Shown here: positions 29,987-63,625 of the stretch, in pieces
Layout of the letters: the number at the start of each line of letters is the position of its first letter
How positions within the stretch are numbered: the first letter of the stretch is position 1
Origin: an uncultured Cohaesibacter sp.
GTDB lineage: Bacteria > Pseudomonadota > Alphaproteobacteria > Rhizobiales > Cohaesibacteraceae
Direction of reading: 5' to 3'
Assembly: GCF_963677725.1 (NCBI RefSeq)
Contig: NZ_OY782507.1
Coordinates: 2,976,001-3,040,000 of the forward strand
Length of the DNA: 64,000 bases
The notes under the pieces: generated by a model
The model's database searches: none
Told to the model about the DNA's origin: nothing
The model's input: only the letters and a program-made list of their open reading frames with translations
Position numbers and translations under genes: made by a program

Positions 29987-31225
29987 ATGGCCTTTCTAAC
30001 CGCTCCCCTTGAACGTCGCATCACCAAGGCAGTGAAGGTAGGGTCCGTCACCGTTGGTGGCGGCGCGCCGATCGTCGTGCAGTCAATGACCAACACGGAC
30101 ACAGCGGATGTGGACAGTACGGTGGCGCAGGTGGCCGCTTTGCACAAGGCTGGATCGGAACTTGTGCGGATCACGGTGGACCGGGACGAATCAGCCGCCG
30201 CTGTGCCCAAAATCAAGGAACGGCTGTTGCGGCTTGGTGTCGATGTGCCGCTGGTCGGGGATTTCCACTATATCGGCCACAAGCTGCTCGCAGATCATCC
30301 TGCCTGTGCCGAAGCGCTCGACAAATACCGGATCAATCCGGGGAATGTGGGCTTCAAGGCGCGGCGCGACCAGCAATTTTCGATGATGATCGAGACCGCC
30401 AACCACTATCAGAAGGCGGTGCGGATCGGGGTCAATTGGGGTTCGCTGGATCAGGAATTGCTGACCAAGCTGATGGATGAGAACTCTGCCAGTGCCGATC
30501 CGCAGCCCGCCGAGAAGGTGATGCATGAAACCATCATCCAGTCGGCCTTGCTGTCGGCCAAGCGGGCTGAAGAGTTGGGCATGTCGCCCCATCAGATCAT
30601 CCTGTCGGCCAAGGTGTCTCAGGTGCAAGATCTGATTGCGGTTAATGTCGAGTTGGCGCGGCGCTCCGATTATGCGCTGCATCTGGGCCTGACCGAAGCA
30701 GGCATGGGCACAAAGGGCATTGTTGCCTCTGCTGCCTCCATGGGCATGGTTCTGCAGCAAGGCATCGGCGACACAATCCGCGTGTCCCTGACACCGGAAC
30801 CGGGCGGGGATCGAACCCGTGAGGTTCAGGTGGCGCAGGAATTGCTCCAGAGCATGGGGTTCCGCTCCTTCATTCCGATTGTTGCAGCCTGTCCGGGCTG
30901 TGGCCGAACCACGTCGACGGTATTCCAAGAGCTGGCGCAGGATATTCAGAATGACATCCGCACCAATATGCCTCTCTGGCGAGAGCAATATCCCGGTGTC
31001 GAGGCGCTGAATGTTGCGGTGATGGGCTGTGTGGTCAATGGGCCGGGCGAATCAAAACATGCTGATATTGGCATTTCTCTGCCCGGCACCGGCGAGGCGC
31101 CTGCCGCACCGGTCTTCATTGACGGGGAGAAAAAGGCGACCCTGCGCGGCGATGATATCGCTGCGGAATTCCACCAGATGGTGCGCGATTATATCGAACA
31201 GCGCTTTGGAGCGGGTGCGGCCTGA
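29987..31225 (+). CDS. ispG: (E)-4-hydroxy-3-methylbut-2-enyl diphosphate synthase (GcpE)
   Basis: The 412-residue enzyme makes HMBPP from MEcPP in the MEP pathway for isoprenoids. The N-terminal TIM barrel has [26 protein letters not shown] and [18 protein letters not shown]. The C-terminal 4Fe-4S domain has the three cysteine ligands in [11 protein letters not shown] and [11 protein letters not shown], followed by [12 protein letters not shown]. Length matches the bacterial type (about 400). The ATG has GAGG upstream. The next gene, convergent, is a prenyl diphosphate synthase, the downstream use of the pathway products. Confidence 0.97.
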
Positions 31226-31291
31226 TCTAGTCCGCCTGATCCAGGCCGCCTGATCTTCTGGCAAGATCGTCTGTTCAGGGGTTGAGCCGGC

Positions 31292-59099: not shown

Positions 59100-60290
59100 T
59101 CAACTCAGTTTGCTCAAGGTGTTGATAACCGTTAACCGCGTCGTGACGGCTGTGAAGATGGCAATGGCCAGTGCCAGCGCCAAGGTGCCAAGATAGGCAC
59201 TGTAGCCAAGTTCAATCACGCCGAGCAAGGCCTGCATCTGATCCGCTGCCGCCGAGCCTTCATCTTCCCGGACGACATATTGCATGATCAGGAAGGCCAG
59301 CATGGCAGCCCCACCGCCCGACATCGAGCCCTTGATGCCAAGGGCAAAGAAGCGGCGCTGGAACTCGCTCGCAATGAAACGATTGCTGGCACCGACAAAA
59401 TGCAACACCTCGATGGTTTCCTTGTTGCCTGCCATGGCCGAGCGGGTGGCAAAGACCACGATCAGCACAGTGGCGGCAATCACCAGTGCAAGAATGGCCA
59501 CGCCTGCGAGGATGGCTGTGTCCGCCATCGATTTGAGACGGTCGACCCAGAAGCGGTGATTGTCAAGGATCGCCCCACGCACTTGCTGTTGCAGGGCGTC
59601 GCTGATCGCGGCGAAGTCGACCACGGCGGGATCATCAATCGTCAACTCGATCAAGCGGGGGACCGGCAAATCGTCAAAGGCCAGATCAAGGCCAAGCCAC
59701 GGTTCCAGAAGGGCGTTGGAATCCTTTTCTGTCAGCACTTTGGCACTGTTTATGCCATCGGCGTCGCGGGCGATGCGGACCGCCTTGGCCAGTTCGGCAT
59801 CGATATCAACCCCTTCAATGTGGCGGATCTGAATGGTGGCACCGCGCGAGATGTCCGATTGCCAGTCGCGGGTGGCGTCCGAGACTACCGACACGCCTGC
59901 CACTGTGAGGGCGGCAAGGAAGCTCATGATGGCAATGACCAATACGAGGGCATGGCCTGCAATGGTGCCTTTGGGCACGATTGGGCCGGCTTTGTTGGCC
60001 ACCGCAAAGCTGGAGCTTTCGAGCATCGCCTTGGGCTTTAGGTCCCCAAGCCGGCGCTTGCGACGTTTCGGTTTGGCGGAGTGGGATTTTGTCTTGCCTG
60101 AGCCGTCCTTGGCATTGCTCTTGGGGGGCGCAAAGGACTGGCTGTCAACGGGATTGAGGTTTGGGCCGACCCGTGGAGAGTTGGAGGGCATGGGCGGCAG
60201 GCTTTGGGCTCCATGAATGGATGGACCTGTTGGACGGCCATCGCCTCGCCCCGAATTGCTGCCATTGCTGTCTGGTTTTTCACGCGCCAC
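59100..60290 (-). CDS. ftsX: cell division protein FtsX
   Basis: The 396-residue permease-like protein has four membrane helices (about 111-133, 270-295, 325-350, 370-393) in the FtsX layout, with the usual external loop after TM1 (about 135-265). GNKETIEVLHFVGASNRFIASEFQRRFFALGIKG is the FtsX family segment before TM3. It has an unusually long N-terminus: about 105 cytoplasmic residues rich in Pro, Ser, Lys and Arg (KSHSAKPKRRKRRLGD). With FtsE it controls septal cell wall hydrolases. The start is GTG with GAGG upstream, 10 bp after the ftsE stop. Confidence 0.93.
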   Translation of the reverse strand: MAREKPDSNGSNSGRGDGRPTGPSIHGAQSLPPMPSNSPRVGPNLNPVDSQSFAPPKSNAKDGSGKTKSHSAKPKRRKRRLGDLKPKAMLESSSFAVANKAGPIVPKGTIAGHALVLVIAIMSFLAALTVAGVSVVSDATRDWQSDISRGATIQIRHIEGVDIDAELAKAVRIARDADGINSAKVLTEKDSNALLEPWLGLDLAFDDLPVPRLIELTIDDPAVVDFAAISDALQQQVRGAILDNHRFWVDRLKSMADTAILAGVAILALVIAATVLIVVFATRSAMAGNKETIEVLHFVGASNRFIASEFQRRFFALGIKGSMSGGGAAMLAFLIMQYVVREDEGSAAADQMQALLGVIELGYSAYLGTLALALAIAIFTAVTTRLTVINTLSKLS

Positions 60291-60300
60291 GGTTCACCCC

Positions 60301-60960
60301 TCAATCATACACATAGAGCGCGCCATCATTGAGCACGATCCTGCGTGCATCGACCTGATCCATGAGACCCGTGTCGTGAGTGGCGATGATGATGGAGGTG
60401 CCGGAGCGGTGCAACTCGATGAAAAGCCTGAGCAGTCGACGGGCGAGAATCGGATCGACGTTGCCGGTCGGCTCGTCGGCCAGCAGAAGCTTGGGCTGGG
60501 AAATCAGGGCGCGGGCGATGGCGGCGCGTTGTTTCTCGCCGCCCGACATGACTGGCGGGTAGACATGCATGCGATGACCAAGCCCCACCCATTGGAGCAG
60601 TTCGGCAACATCGGTGCGATAATCATGTTCTGACTTGCCCTGTACCCGCAACGGCAAGGCAACATTTTCAAAGGTCGTGAGATGGTTTAACAGGCGGAAT
60701 TCCTGAAACACAAAGCCGATCTGGCGACGCAATTGGGACAATTCGTCATGATCAAGCCGGGCGGTGTCCTTGCCGAACACCTTGATCAGCCCGCGATTGG
60801 GCTTGAGCGACAAGAACATCAATTGCAGCAGGGAGGTCTTGCCCGCGCCGGACGGCCCGGAGAGGAACTGGAACGATTTGGCCGGAATGCTAAAGGAAAC
60901 GTCGCGCAGGACTTCCTGTCCCATGCCATACCGCAATCCTACATTTTCAAAGCGAATCAA
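60301..60960 (-). CDS. ftsE: cell division ATP-binding protein FtsE
   Basis: The 219-residue ABC ATPase has Walker A SGPSGAGKTSLLQLMFLS, the FtsE word GFVFQEFRLLNHLTTFENVALPLRV, the signature MSGGEKQRAAIARALI, Walker B LLLADEPTGNVD and switch His THDTG. The initial MIRFENVGLRYGMGQEVLRDVSFSI is standard. It powers FtsX at the divisome and is the first gene of the minus-strand ftsE-ftsX-ydcF-plsC string. It diverges from the zinc-ribbon repeat gene. Confidence 0.96.
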   Translation of the reverse strand: MIRFENVGLRYGMGQEVLRDVSFSIPAKSFQFLSGPSGAGKTSLLQLMFLSLKPNRGLIKVFGKDTARLDHDELSQLRRQIGFVFQEFRLLNHLTTFENVALPLRVQGKSEHDYRTDVAELLQWVGLGHRMHVYPPVMSGGEKQRAAIARALISQPKLLLADEPTGNVDPILARRLLRLFIELHRSGTSIIIATHDTGLMDQVDARRIVLNDGALYVYD

Positions 60961-61171
60961 ACCGGTTTCCTTCTTTGTTGTTGGTGTCGAGCTTGCCTGA
61001 TTTGTTGCGTGAATTCATCCGATTTGTGCCCTGTCTGCCTGATCTTTAGACAGGTCTTGGCAAAGCGTTAAGGGCTGATATCCTAACTTGTGGATGATTC
61101 GCCCGCTTTCCCTTGTTTGAGACCAGAAATGCGGACGTTCCGTGACCGTGGCTTCAACTGATTGTGCGCCA

Positions 61172-62380
61172 ATGAAAATCACCTGTCCCAATTGTTCGAC
61201 CAGCTATCAGGTGCCCGACGATTATATCAGTGCCGAGGGGCGCTCGGTACGGTGTGCCAATTGCGGCGATACATGGCATGCGGTGCCGGAGGCGTCCCCT
61301 CCCAAAGCGCCCACCCCTCCACCTCCTGTCGCGCCTGAAACGGCTGGCGACAAATCCCAGGACGACATTGATGCCCTGTTCGATAGTCCGTCGGAAGGCA
61401 AAGAGCAGAGTCAGGACGATATTGACGCGCTGTTTGACAGCCCATCAGGGGGGGAAGAGCAAAGCCAGGACGATATTGACGCCCTGTTTGACAGTCCCTC
61501 AGGAGGGGAAGAGCAAAGTCAGGACGATATTGACGCTCTGTTCGACAGCCCCTCAGGAGGAGAGGATCAGAGTCAGGACGATATTGATGCTCTGTTTGAT
61601 AGCCCGTCTGGGGGGGAGGAGCAGAATCAGGACGATATTGATGCTTTGTTTGACAGCCCATCAGGGGGAGAGGATCAAAGTCAAGACGATATCGATTCAC
61701 TGTTCGACAATGATGATGGGGGGGCTGGTGACGGCCCAACCGTGATCACGCCTCAAAATAGCGATGACCCGATGGTCGTGACTGGTGACGATGACCGGTT
61801 CGAATCACCTGTCATGGACTTGATGGATGCGGCCGCCTTTGAAGCGCAAAAGAAGCAGGCGCGCGGCAACGACATTGAATCAAGTGTCCAACGCAAGCAG
61901 CGCAAAAAACGGAAAATCAAGGCAAAATCCAGCAGTAAATTCAAGACACAGGCAACCCAGCGCAAGGAATGGGCCATCGGTGGGACGGCGTTTGTTGCCA
62001 CGCTCATCCTCATTATCAGTCTGTTTGCGGCACCCAACTTCTGGACCCGAAGCTTTCCGGATCTTGCCTCGCTCTATGGCATGTTGGGCATGGATATCAA
62101 TGTCGCCGGGGTCGAAATTGATGCTGTGCATGTGGAACTGGTCCAAAAGGCCGGGGCTCCGGTCATTGCGGTGGAGGCCGAGCTTGTGAATCTTGGCACA
62201 GAACCTGTGAGTCTTCCCTCTGTTCGGTTTTCGGTCCTTGGCAACAACGATTCAGAACTCTATTCATGGGATATCGATCCTGACACCAAGGGATTGGGGC
62301 CGGGCGAGCGAAAGACGATCAAGACGTCGGTTGCCGCGCCCTCACAAGCGAAATTCGTATCGTTGCGGATGTTCCATTGA
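61172..62380 (+). CDS. zinc-ribbon (MJ0042-type) membrane protein with seven SQDDIDALF repeats
   Basis: A 402-residue protein. Residues 1-38 form an MJ0042 zinc ribbon (MKITCPNCSTSYQVPDDYI...RCANCGDTW, four Cys). A Pro-rich linker follows (about 42-58). Residues 62-184 are seven tandem 18-residue units with core SQDDIDALFDSPSGGE(E/D)Q. A basic segment (KQRKKRKIKAKSSSKF, about 240-260) precedes one membrane helix (about 267-290), and the C-terminal domain (about 291-402, VEIDAVHVELVQKAGAPVIAVEAELVNLGTEPV) resembles DUF3426. The zinc ribbon and repeats should face the cytoplasm. The core resembles the FliM peptide (LSQxEIDALL) that binds phosphorylated CheY. I used the ATG at 61172; a GTG at 61142 is in frame. 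It diverges from ftsE and precedes hpt and the response regulator gene cpdR. Confidence 0.9.
   Translation: MKITCPNCSTSYQVPDDYISAEGRSVRCANCGDTWHAVPEASPPKAPTPPPPVAPETAGDKSQDDIDALFDSPSEGKEQSQDDIDALFDSPSGGEEQSQDDIDALFDSPSGGEEQSQDDIDALFDSPSGGEDQSQDDIDALFDSPSGGEEQNQDDIDALFDSPSGGEDQSQDDIDSLFDNDDGGAGDGPTVITPQNSDDPMVVTGDDDRFESPVMDLMDAAAFEAQKKQARGNDIESSVQRKQRKKRKIKAKSSSKFKTQATQRKEWAIGGTAFVATLILIISLFAAPNFWTRSFPDLASLYGMLGMDINVAGVEIDAVHVELVQKAGAPVIAVEAELVNLGTEPVSLPSVRFSVLGNNDSELYSWDIDPDTKGLGPGERKTIKTSVAAPSQAKFVSLRMFH
61355..61732 (+). repeat. seven tandem 54-bp units in the zinc-ribbon gene
   Basis: Units start at 61355, 61409, 61463, 61517, 61571, 61625 and 61679, an exact 54-bp period; the last is degenerate at its end (SLFDNDDGG). 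Synonymous codons differ between units (for example AGTCCGTCG, AGCCCATCA and AGTCCCTCA for Ser-Pro-Ser) while residues stay nearly fixed, so the protein sequence is under selection. Confidence 0.95.
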
Positions 62381-62466: not shown

Positions 62467-62997
62467 ATGACAGACACCATTCACGTCCTCTTTGACGAGG
62501 CGACACTGGCTGATCGCAACATCGAGTTGGCCAAATCCATCGCGGAAGCGGACTATCAAAATCTTCTGGTGATTGCTGTGCTAAAGGGCAGCTTCGTTTT
62601 CGCTGCCGATTTGTTGCGTGCGCTCTATCGGGCAGGTGTGAAACTCGAAGTGGAATTCATGTCCCTGTCGAGCTATGGCTCGGGCACCAAATCCACCGGC
62701 CATGTGCAGGTGGTGCGTGATGTCGAGGAAGAGGTCAATGGTCGTGATGTCCTCTTGATTGATGACATTCTGGAATCGGGCCGGACGCTGGCCTTTGCCA
62801 AGGATCTGCTATCCAATCGCGGCGCCAATCGGGTTGATGTGGCGGTGCTGCTCGACAAGCCAGGCAAGCGGGTGGCCGACATTAAAGGCGATTATGTCGG
62901 CTTTGTCTGTCCGGATAAATTTGTCGTTGGCTATGGGATGGACAAGGCGCATTCCTATCGCGAAGTGCCGTTTGTCGGCTATCTCGAACAGTCTTGA
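62467..62997 (+). CDS. hpt: hypoxanthine phosphoribosyltransferase
   Basis: The 176-residue enzyme makes IMP (and GMP) from the free base and PRPP. The PRPP motif is VLLIDDILESGRTLAFAKDLL, with upstream LVIAVLKGSFVFAADLLRAL and MSLSSYGSGTKSTGHVQVVRDVEEEVNGRD, then KGDYVGFVCPDKFVVGYGMD. These are standard type I PRTase/HPRT words. It follows the zinc-ribbon gene on the same strand with an 86-bp gap. Confidence 0.96.
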   Translation: MTDTIHVLFDEATLADRNIELAKSIAEADYQNLLVIAVLKGSFVFAADLLRALYRAGVKLEVEFMSLSSYGSGTKSTGHVQVVRDVEEEVNGRDVLLIDDILESGRTLAFAKDLLSNRGANRVDVAVLLDKPGKRVADIKGDYVGFVCPDKFVVGYGMDKAHSYREVPFVGYLEQS

Positions 62998-63214: not shown

Positions 63215-63625
63215 ATGGCCCGAATTCTTCTGACCGAAGACGATGATGGCGTGCGTATGTTTGTTCAACGAGCCTTGATGATGGACGGACATGATGTCAG
63301 AACGGCAGAAGATGGTGGGGATGCCCTTGATGTGCTGACAGATTGTGAAGGGGCGTTTGATCTGCTCCTGACCGATATCAAGATGCCCTTCATGGACGGC
63401 ATTGCGCTGGCCCAGAGTGCGGCGCAAGAGTATCCCGAATTGACCATTTTGATGATGACAGGATTTGCTGATCAGCGCGAACGCTGCGATAGCCTGAATG
63501 CGATCGTTCATGACGTGGTTTCCAAGCCATTTTCTCTGGCAGAAATCCGCAATGCGGTGCGTGAAGCCCTGTCGGGGCGTGCTGCCTCCGGGCCGGCCTC
63601 CTTGGCTCATGTCATGTATGGCTGA
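63215..63625 (+). CDS. cpdR: single-domain response regulator CpdR
   Basis: A 136-residue receiver domain with no output domain. Acidic pocket TEDDD (residues 7-11), phosphoacceptor D54 in LLLTDIKMPFMDG, Thr in MMTGFA and Lys in VSKPF. The words ARILLTEDDDGVRMFVQRAL and LSxAEIRNAVREAL are close to CpdR, which in Caulobacter and Brucella, when unphosphorylated, helps ClpXP find its substrates at the cell pole. The C-terminal tail (SGRAASGPASLAHVMYG) extends slightly past other CpdR proteins. GGGAG lies eight bases before the ATG at 63215; the long frame upstream overlapping hpt is not coding. A terminator follows. Confidence 0.85.
   Translation: MARILLTEDDDGVRMFVQRALMMDGHDVRTAEDGGDALDVLTDCEGAFDLLLTDIKMPFMDGIALAQSAAQEYPELTILMMTGFADQRERCDSLNAIVHDVVSKPFSLAEIRNAVREALSGRAASGPASLAHVMYG

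Follow-up and report, generated by a model that had tools for sequence, protein, structure and literature searches.

What could be the function of a short acidic motif that is repeated seven times with an exact period in a membrane-anchored zinc-ribbon protein encoded beside ftsE and ftsX? The locus lies near the end of the window, i.e. the whole stretch of 64,000 nucleotides from a Cohaesibacter genome that was analysed. With a rough probability of 0.6, the sequence points to a polar membrane protein of the ZitP type which also serves as a multivalent docking platform, its ligands being receivers of the CheY family. The features of the locus are:

59100..60290, minus strand: ftsX, with an FtsX match of 23.3 bits just under the cut-off of 25.5 (context)
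60301..60960, minus strand: ftsE by Pfam, divergent neighbour of the zinc-ribbon gene (context)
61172..62380, plus strand: gene of the ZitP-type membrane protein, 402 aa (ORF, Pfam, NCBIfam, structure match, AlphaFold2)
61172..61285, plus strand: MJ0042/Zn_ribbon_4 zinc ribbon, residues 1-38, with C5, C8, C28, C31, R24, R27 and W35
61355..61732, plus strand: array of seven 18-residue units, core SQDDIDALFD, period 54 bp, predicted disordered
61889..61945, plus strand: basic stretch, residues 240-258, before the membrane helix (sequence; positive-inside signal)
61949..62029, plus strand: membrane helix, model helix 260-286 (AlphaFold2 and hydrophobicity)
62111..62374, plus strand: C-terminal beta-sandwich, residues 314-401, DUF3426/FxLYD-like (weak family matches and model)
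62467..62997, plus strand: phosphoribosyltransferase gene, presumably hpt (Pribosyltran, E 8.7e-28; context)
63215..63625, plus strand: CpdR-like single-domain receiver, 136 aa, not a canonical CpdR (Pfam, NCBIfam)

The gene likely starts at ATG 61172 and encodes a product of 402 aa; a GTG at 61142 was disfavoured, since with the ATG the ribbon cysteines are numbered 5, 8, 28 and 31 like those of ZitP. They form the CXXC-X19-CXXC pattern expected at the N-terminus of a ZitP, and the protein matched Zn_ribbon_4 of Pfam with an E-value of 1.2e-14. The AlphaFold2 model had a mean pLDDT of 62.8. The zinc ribbon (about 85) was modelled with confidence and the beta-sandwich reached 75-91 by blocks; the array had no regular fold and low confidence (blocks of 36-52). 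Helix 260-286 of the model is compatible with a membrane span, and as the basic stretch precedes it, ribbon and array probably face the cytoplasm. The first-pass annotation had described a membrane-anchored zinc-ribbon protein with a basic pre-membrane segment beside ftsEX. Zinc ribbon, basic stretch and membrane helix were all recovered, with ftsE/ftsX divergent upstream, and the membrane-anchored array on the cytoplasmic side gained support from the model helix and the basic stretch. Sub-threshold matches linked the C-terminal domain to DUF3426 of Pfam (E 0.044, 14.3 bits, cut-off 27.7) and to FxLYD of NCBIfam (E 0.0028). A fold search with the model yielded no specific match, the small protein ApaG ranking top.

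The best solved relative of the zinc ribbon was 2nb9 (E 1.5e-9), an entry with the title 'uncharacterized protein'. It was taken as the ZitP zinc ribbon because K18, R24, R27, R34, W35 and the four cysteines are numbered as in PMC5182065. According to an excerpt of this study, C5, C8, C28, C31, R24/R27 and W35 are needed for the polar complex of ZitP with PopZ (PMC5182065). All seven PopZ-binding residues were present at identical numbers in the window protein; K18 and R34 of the basic patch of ZitP are Y and T. A PopZ homologue is encoded in the home genome (DUF2497 E 3.5e-24), as in 56 of 61 genomes altogether. Asticcacaulis is a relative of Caulobacter, and the sole zinc-ribbon match of Asticcacaulis currens (E <= 0.01) is likewise flanked by ftsE and the phosphoribosyltransferase gene and has no array; this same position supports orthology with ZitP. 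From these sequence characters, the protein of 61172-62380 is probably located at the cell pole. The placement at the divisome proposed in the first-pass annotation relied on the gene order and was given up, as the zinc ribbon indicates the PopZ pole.

The array comprises seven consecutive units at 61355-61732 (7 x 54 = 378 bp), one repeat being SQDDIDALFDSPSGG; the exact 54-bp period of 18-residue units with synonymous codon variation was thereby confirmed. TRF reported a period of 54 with 6.5 copies and a score of 403 at 61358-61709. The core SQDDIDALFD is exact in five of the seven units, with N opening unit 6 and S replacing A in unit 7, and exact copies of the longer string SQDDIDALFDSPSGGE occur in units 2-5 alone. 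The DNA identity between units ranges from 0.52 to 0.91 and the differences are mostly synonymous, thus the array has been kept at the protein level. Between the units of the window gene, pS was 0.76 and pN 0.044 in the core, against 0.86 and 0.064 in the linker of units 1-6. These within-gene ratios do not set the core apart from the linker; the comparison between families does, and when eight zinc-ribbon proteins were aligned, nearly all invariant columns of the array fell within the core. Elsewhere in the window, at 31220-31256, a 14-bp unit GCCTGATCTAGGCC stands in tandem with 2.6 copies.

An acidic disordered spacer expanded by slippage, resembling CheZ tails by chance or composition, would explain the tandem arrangement, the acidic units with Gly/Ser-rich linkers, a copy number varying from 2 to 9 across the genus and the about equal conservation of core and linker between the window units. 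This explanation is hardly tenable against the mostly synonymous changes between units and the motif counts: 125 matches were observed in 49 proteins, while 0.043 were expected from shuffling each whole protein, and a looser pattern found 249 matches in 61 genomes with 6 in the reversed control. Chance or composition as the source of the motif was rejected by the shuffles and the reversed-pattern control.

The distribution of the motif in the home genome was recorded with a strict form, Q-x-[DE]-[FILMV]-D-x-[FILMV]-F-[DE], searched as a DNA pattern with x slightly restricted in one run. Fourteen matches were obtained in the entire 4.6-Mb genome and none with the reversed pattern. Seven are in the zinc-ribbon protein, six in three CheZ paralogues (4+1+1) and one in the PopZ homologue. 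The repeats beside the ZitP-type ribbon and the CheZ tails of the same genome are thus one motif, clustered in chemotaxis and polarity proteins. CheZ-B and CheZ-C, two of the three paralogues, terminate exactly in the motif, and a cheY gene adjoins the gene of CheZ-C. In CheZ-A all copies are internal. In CheZ-B the Pfam CheZ match ends at residue 257 of 258, at profile position 198 of 203, and therefore includes the terminal motif. Just ahead of its terminal copy, CheZ-C contains another, internal one, whose stretch nqndvdamladldf pairs with sqdqvddlldslgf at the C-terminal end of E. coli CheZ (1kmi chain Z, E 3.4e-5). The E. coli CheZ peptide listed for the CheY complex 2FMF, in an excerpt of its description, is QDQVDDLLDSLGF. 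Among 40 loci chosen by CheZ place alone, of which several may share one genome, the motif was terminal in 31 of 31 B-type, one of two C-type and none of seven A-type tails. A wider set gave 37 of 37, 27 of 28 and 1 of 18, respectively, counts that are biased upwards because many of its loci were fetched for holding the motif. Tail to tail with CheZ-A, a 1859-residue protein (L009:6426-12005, minus strand) carries many degenerate repeats, e.g., ENLANTGGALTGELRSIGSEVT.

The first-pass annotation had recognized the motif by its likeness to the N-terminal peptide of FliM. In the FliM complex 1F4V the residues touching CheY are Q8, I11, D12 and L14 (table 3 in the excerpt of PMC3774744), and the corresponding Q, I, D and L are kept in all seven window units. 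Across the genus, 114 units fitted the motif at a regular spacing of 17-19 residues, a count in which a few units may be doubled as the gene of genome G017 spans two contigs whose ends may share units. Only three near misses stood beside them, thus few degenerate units exist; one has N in place of the contact Asp. The residue counts over 113 units are partly preset, since the collecting pattern demanded Q and D, which the near-miss search did not. The contact of FliM Leu6, two positions before Q, is absent, with Gln in 110 of the 113 genus units. CheZ tails have mostly Ala or other residues there and a few Val, E. coli CheZ has Ala. The FliM of the home genome reads LNQEEIDNLLG. FliM as the nearest source of the motif was rejected, the CheZ tails being closer. 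The assignment to the CheY-docking kind of peptide, which had been claimed before and is upheld here at the level of sequence, is based on the two of three CheZ paralogues ending in the motif and the alignment of CheZ-C with E. coli CheZ, not on the resemblance to FliM.

The motif may instead bind another partner common to CheZ, PopZ and the zinc-ribbon protein, a polar or membrane factor, with the CheZ tail acting in these bacteria as a localisation tag and not as a grip on CheY. The PopZ and zinc-ribbon carriers are indeed polarity proteins, motifs that localise CheZ in Azorhizobium are the subject of a paper (PMC7750401), and of the two copies in CheZ-C it is the internal one that matches the E. 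coli peptide. Such a partner is nevertheless unlikely. The terminal copy of CheZ-B lies within the Pfam CheZ match, the internal copy of CheZ-C can be aligned to the E. coli peptide that binds CheY, both copies keep the FliM contact residues or close substitutes, and one array is fused to a receiver, as described below.

Related genomes were searched with the looser pattern. Its matches numbered 197 against 2 in the control for the 18 genomes of the genus and 52 against 4 for the 43 others. Outside the genus, 36 of the 52 matches were in CheZ (19), zinc-ribbon proteins (7), PopZ (5), an EAL protein (3) and a protein family with a DYLNHF core (2). Fourteen were in unrelated ORFs named by eye (three LeuD-like, LysR-like and others), so that the true background is higher than the 4 of the reversed control, and two (G052:C9:39945 and G054:C1:7139274) were left out of the carrier assignment. 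The zinc-ribbon protein held the motif in all 18 genus genomes, the copy number lying between 2 and 9 (in G017 the gene is in two contig pieces). Outside the genus it was found in two of 36 homologues examined, those of G019, a member of the same family, and of G052. The 34 homologues without it include that of G018, again of the same family, and that of G051, which ends after 94 residues at a contig end; the protein of G050, split over two contigs, was left out of this count. The array is therefore not essential to the zinc-ribbon family. Comparison across related genomes, as proposed in the first-pass annotation, thus had a mixed outcome for its refuting condition of close relatives without the motif: the motif was present throughout the genus but missing from the same-family G018 and from nearly all homologues outside the genus.

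PopZ carried the motif in 9 of the 18 genus genomes and in 7 of 38 homologues outside, several of the 38 being long, weak DUF2497 matches. None of the outside-genus genomes examined had the motif on both PopZ and the zinc-ribbon protein. In genome G031 the PopZ homologue (L140) has three SQDDLDALFD units in tandem, repeating every 20 residues, and the zinc-ribbon protein has none. CheZ (E <= 0.001) was detected in 26 of 42 outside-genus genomes examined, with a score under the family cut-off in G059. All 9 outside-genus genomes in which PopZ or the zinc-ribbon protein bears the motif are among these 26, and the 16 genomes lacking CheZ gave none (Fisher p 0.008, relatedness ignored); some genomes in this table yielded only one of the two proteins, and G022 neither.

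Two motifs in tandem were then sought across 84,980 species, where records very near the window may be missing, and 34 stretches were returned: 20 in CheZ, one in a CheZ-like protein, ten in zinc-ribbon proteins, and one each in the DYLNHF family, an EAL protein and a CheY-like receiver. Fifteen of the CheZ arrays were from Asticcacaulis, the rest from Hyphomonadaceae, Pseudaquidulcibacter, Ponticaulis, Rhodospirillales and Cohaesibacter; the CheZ-like protein was from Ignavibacteria. The zinc-ribbon arrays belonged to Cohaesibacter and Cohaesibacteraceae, other Hyphomicrobiales and one Nitrospinota. The latter is a 748-residue zinc-ribbon protein (L159:5504-7747, minus strand) with seven QDDIDALF-type motifs and Phe for W35. 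Its position outside the Proteobacteria suggests an independent gain, and since it lacks W35, targeting to the PopZ pole cannot be general to zinc-ribbon proteins with arrays. A viral-contig scan detected no tandem motifs.

The other carriers differ in kind. A natural fusion of array and CheY-like receiver of the GPDRRR type (Response_reg E 8e-25) is encoded at L200:994-1740 in G061, on a contig shared with L156; four tandem SQDDIDNMF units form its C-terminus, and an array-less receiver of the home genome (L264) is 61% identical to the L156/L200 receiver. In G043, a 641-aa CSS-motif/EAL protein (L136:2267-4189, minus strand; EAL E 7e-65) bears several SQDDVDALF-type repeats in its C-terminal tail; they may connect the breakdown of c-di-GMP with the docking of receivers. 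Proteins of the DYLNHF family (L106, L110, L114, L101, L125, L161, L199) have about 170-250 aa and an ATDYLNHFNE-like core and end in the motif (AQDEVDRLFD and similar), with three copies in L161; two of them were scanned against Pfam and gave no match.

Which receiver could be docked? The first-pass annotation had named CpdR, encoded two genes downstream, as the prime candidate, so that the array would gather the adjacent receiver beside the divisome. The distance of two genes speaks for this partner, and an excerpt on Caulobacter CpdR, which binds PopZ in its unphosphorylated form, provides a precedent for a receiver at a polar hub (PMC11519897). The neighbour, however, reached 101.2 bits against the cut-off of 180 for CpdR (NCBIfam NF046022), and its membership in CpdR was rejected; the canonical CpdR of the genome is encoded elsewhere (L256, G000:C1 near 3885569) and scored 200.7 bits. 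At the positions of CheY Tyr106 and Lys119 the neighbour has V and A, the canonical CpdR V and E. Vibrio CheY4, whose residue at the Lys119 position is Thr, fails to bind FliM according to an excerpt of PMC3774744. The order ftsX-ftsE, zinc-ribbon gene, hpt and receiver gene also persists in relatives without the array (e.g., L035, L037, L268, L272), therefore the adjacency has no weight for the choice of a partner. A role of this neighbour as the docked partner is very unlikely, and the proposal of CpdR was dropped.

Thirteen proteins, mostly short, were compared from the 66 receiver domains in the genome. Five of them have an aromatic residue at the CheY-106 and a basic one at the 119 position: the CheY beside CheZ-C, L262, L264 with its relative L258, and one longer, by eye FixJ-like protein. 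L262:1704-2072 is the receiver of a che gene cluster, located between CheW and CheB. The CheY encoded beside CheZ-C (L233) is the first candidate for the partner of the array.

For the ZitP-type docking platform the following mode of action is proposed. The N-terminal zinc ribbon would bind the polar matrix protein PopZ, as suggested by the conservation of the residues needed in Caulobacter ZitP, and the membrane helix would hold the protein so that its N-terminal portion stays cytoplasmic. Seven copies of the CheZ C-terminal peptide that grips CheY would be presented by the disordered array; homology of the motif is observed, binding is deduced from it. On the alpha4-beta5-alpha5 face of a receiver of the CheY type, each copy would fold into a short helix that uses Q, I, D and L for the contacts described for FliM. 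The phosphorylated form of the receiver would probably be favoured, as judged from E. coli. Seven weak sites in a row could concentrate or buffer receivers at the pole, and the array would compete with FliM and CheZ for them. The array thus suggests a gathering of CheY-type signalling proteins at the pole that would tie polarity to swimming.

Beyond the single protein, we tentatively consider, at somewhat less than even odds, that the tail of CheZ works as a portable word for receiver docking, acquired repeatedly and often in tandem, and that the ZitP-type proteins of the genus with their 2-9 copies serve as a polar sink or relay coupling polarity to chemotaxis. If true, the carriers of this tag would comprise polar scaffolds (ZitP-type protein, PopZ), phosphatases, an EAL protein and a receiver, and by copying a nine-residue tag bacteria would determine the place in the cell and the strength with which signals of the CheY type are retained. 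In alphaproteobacteria, chemotaxis and cell polarity are mostly handled as separate systems. A motif common to CheZ, PopZ and a ZitP-type protein would tie them by a concrete, mutable peptide, and would constitute a natural multivalent scaffold for receivers. In this lineage it becomes testable how a ZitP-type protein could act on the motor.

Both halves of such a system, ZitP and the CheY-docking peptide, are already known. The open-access papers searched contained no report that combines the two in one multivalent scaffold at the membrane or that places the peptide on PopZ, zinc-ribbon, EAL and receiver proteins; nor were the strings DDIDALF or QDDIDAL, a CheY-binding motif together with PopZ, or MJ0042 proteins together with chemotaxis found there. 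The earlier statement that no system of this kind has been described agrees with this search. Among zinc-ribbon proteins, the gliding motility protein GltJ/AgmX of Myxococcus (7zok) shares the MJ0042 ribbon (NCBIfam E 1.2e-4; 7zok E 2.6e-5) and has, in an excerpt of PMC5182065, Ile in place of Trp35; membership of the window protein in GltJ was rejected with 21 bits against a family cut-off of 450. The docking of CpdR to PopZ in Caulobacter resembles the proposed platform in that a polar hub recruits a single-domain receiver by its phosphorylation state. It differs in the partner, and the excerpt of PMC11519897 mentions no repeat array. An N-terminal CheY-binding motif is known from Caulobacter FliM with the Cle proteins (PMC5677366). 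With the FliM motif (LSQxEIDxLL, 1F4V) the window repeats share the contact positions Q, I, D and L, but they are without the upstream Leu and end in FD, not LG. The E. coli CheZ peptide (1KMI, 2FMF) has the same Q-x-x-[IV]-D-x-[LM]-[LF] core, and the same peptide ends CheZ-B and CheZ-C; the window protein differs by seven tandem copies, a membrane scaffold and the lack of a phosphatase. Caulobacter ZitP (CCNA_02298) promotes swarming by a mechanism that its discoverers call unclear in the excerpt of PMC5182063. It resembles the window protein in the numbering of Cys, Arg and Trp, in a single membrane helix and, judged from the sub-threshold match, probably in a DUF3426-like C-terminal domain; the excerpts of PMC5182065 and PMC5182063 give a zinc ribbon at 1-37 and a membrane segment at 106-127 and mention no repeat array. 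Compared with Caulobacter ZitP, the window protein inserts 126 residues of repeats between ribbon and membrane.
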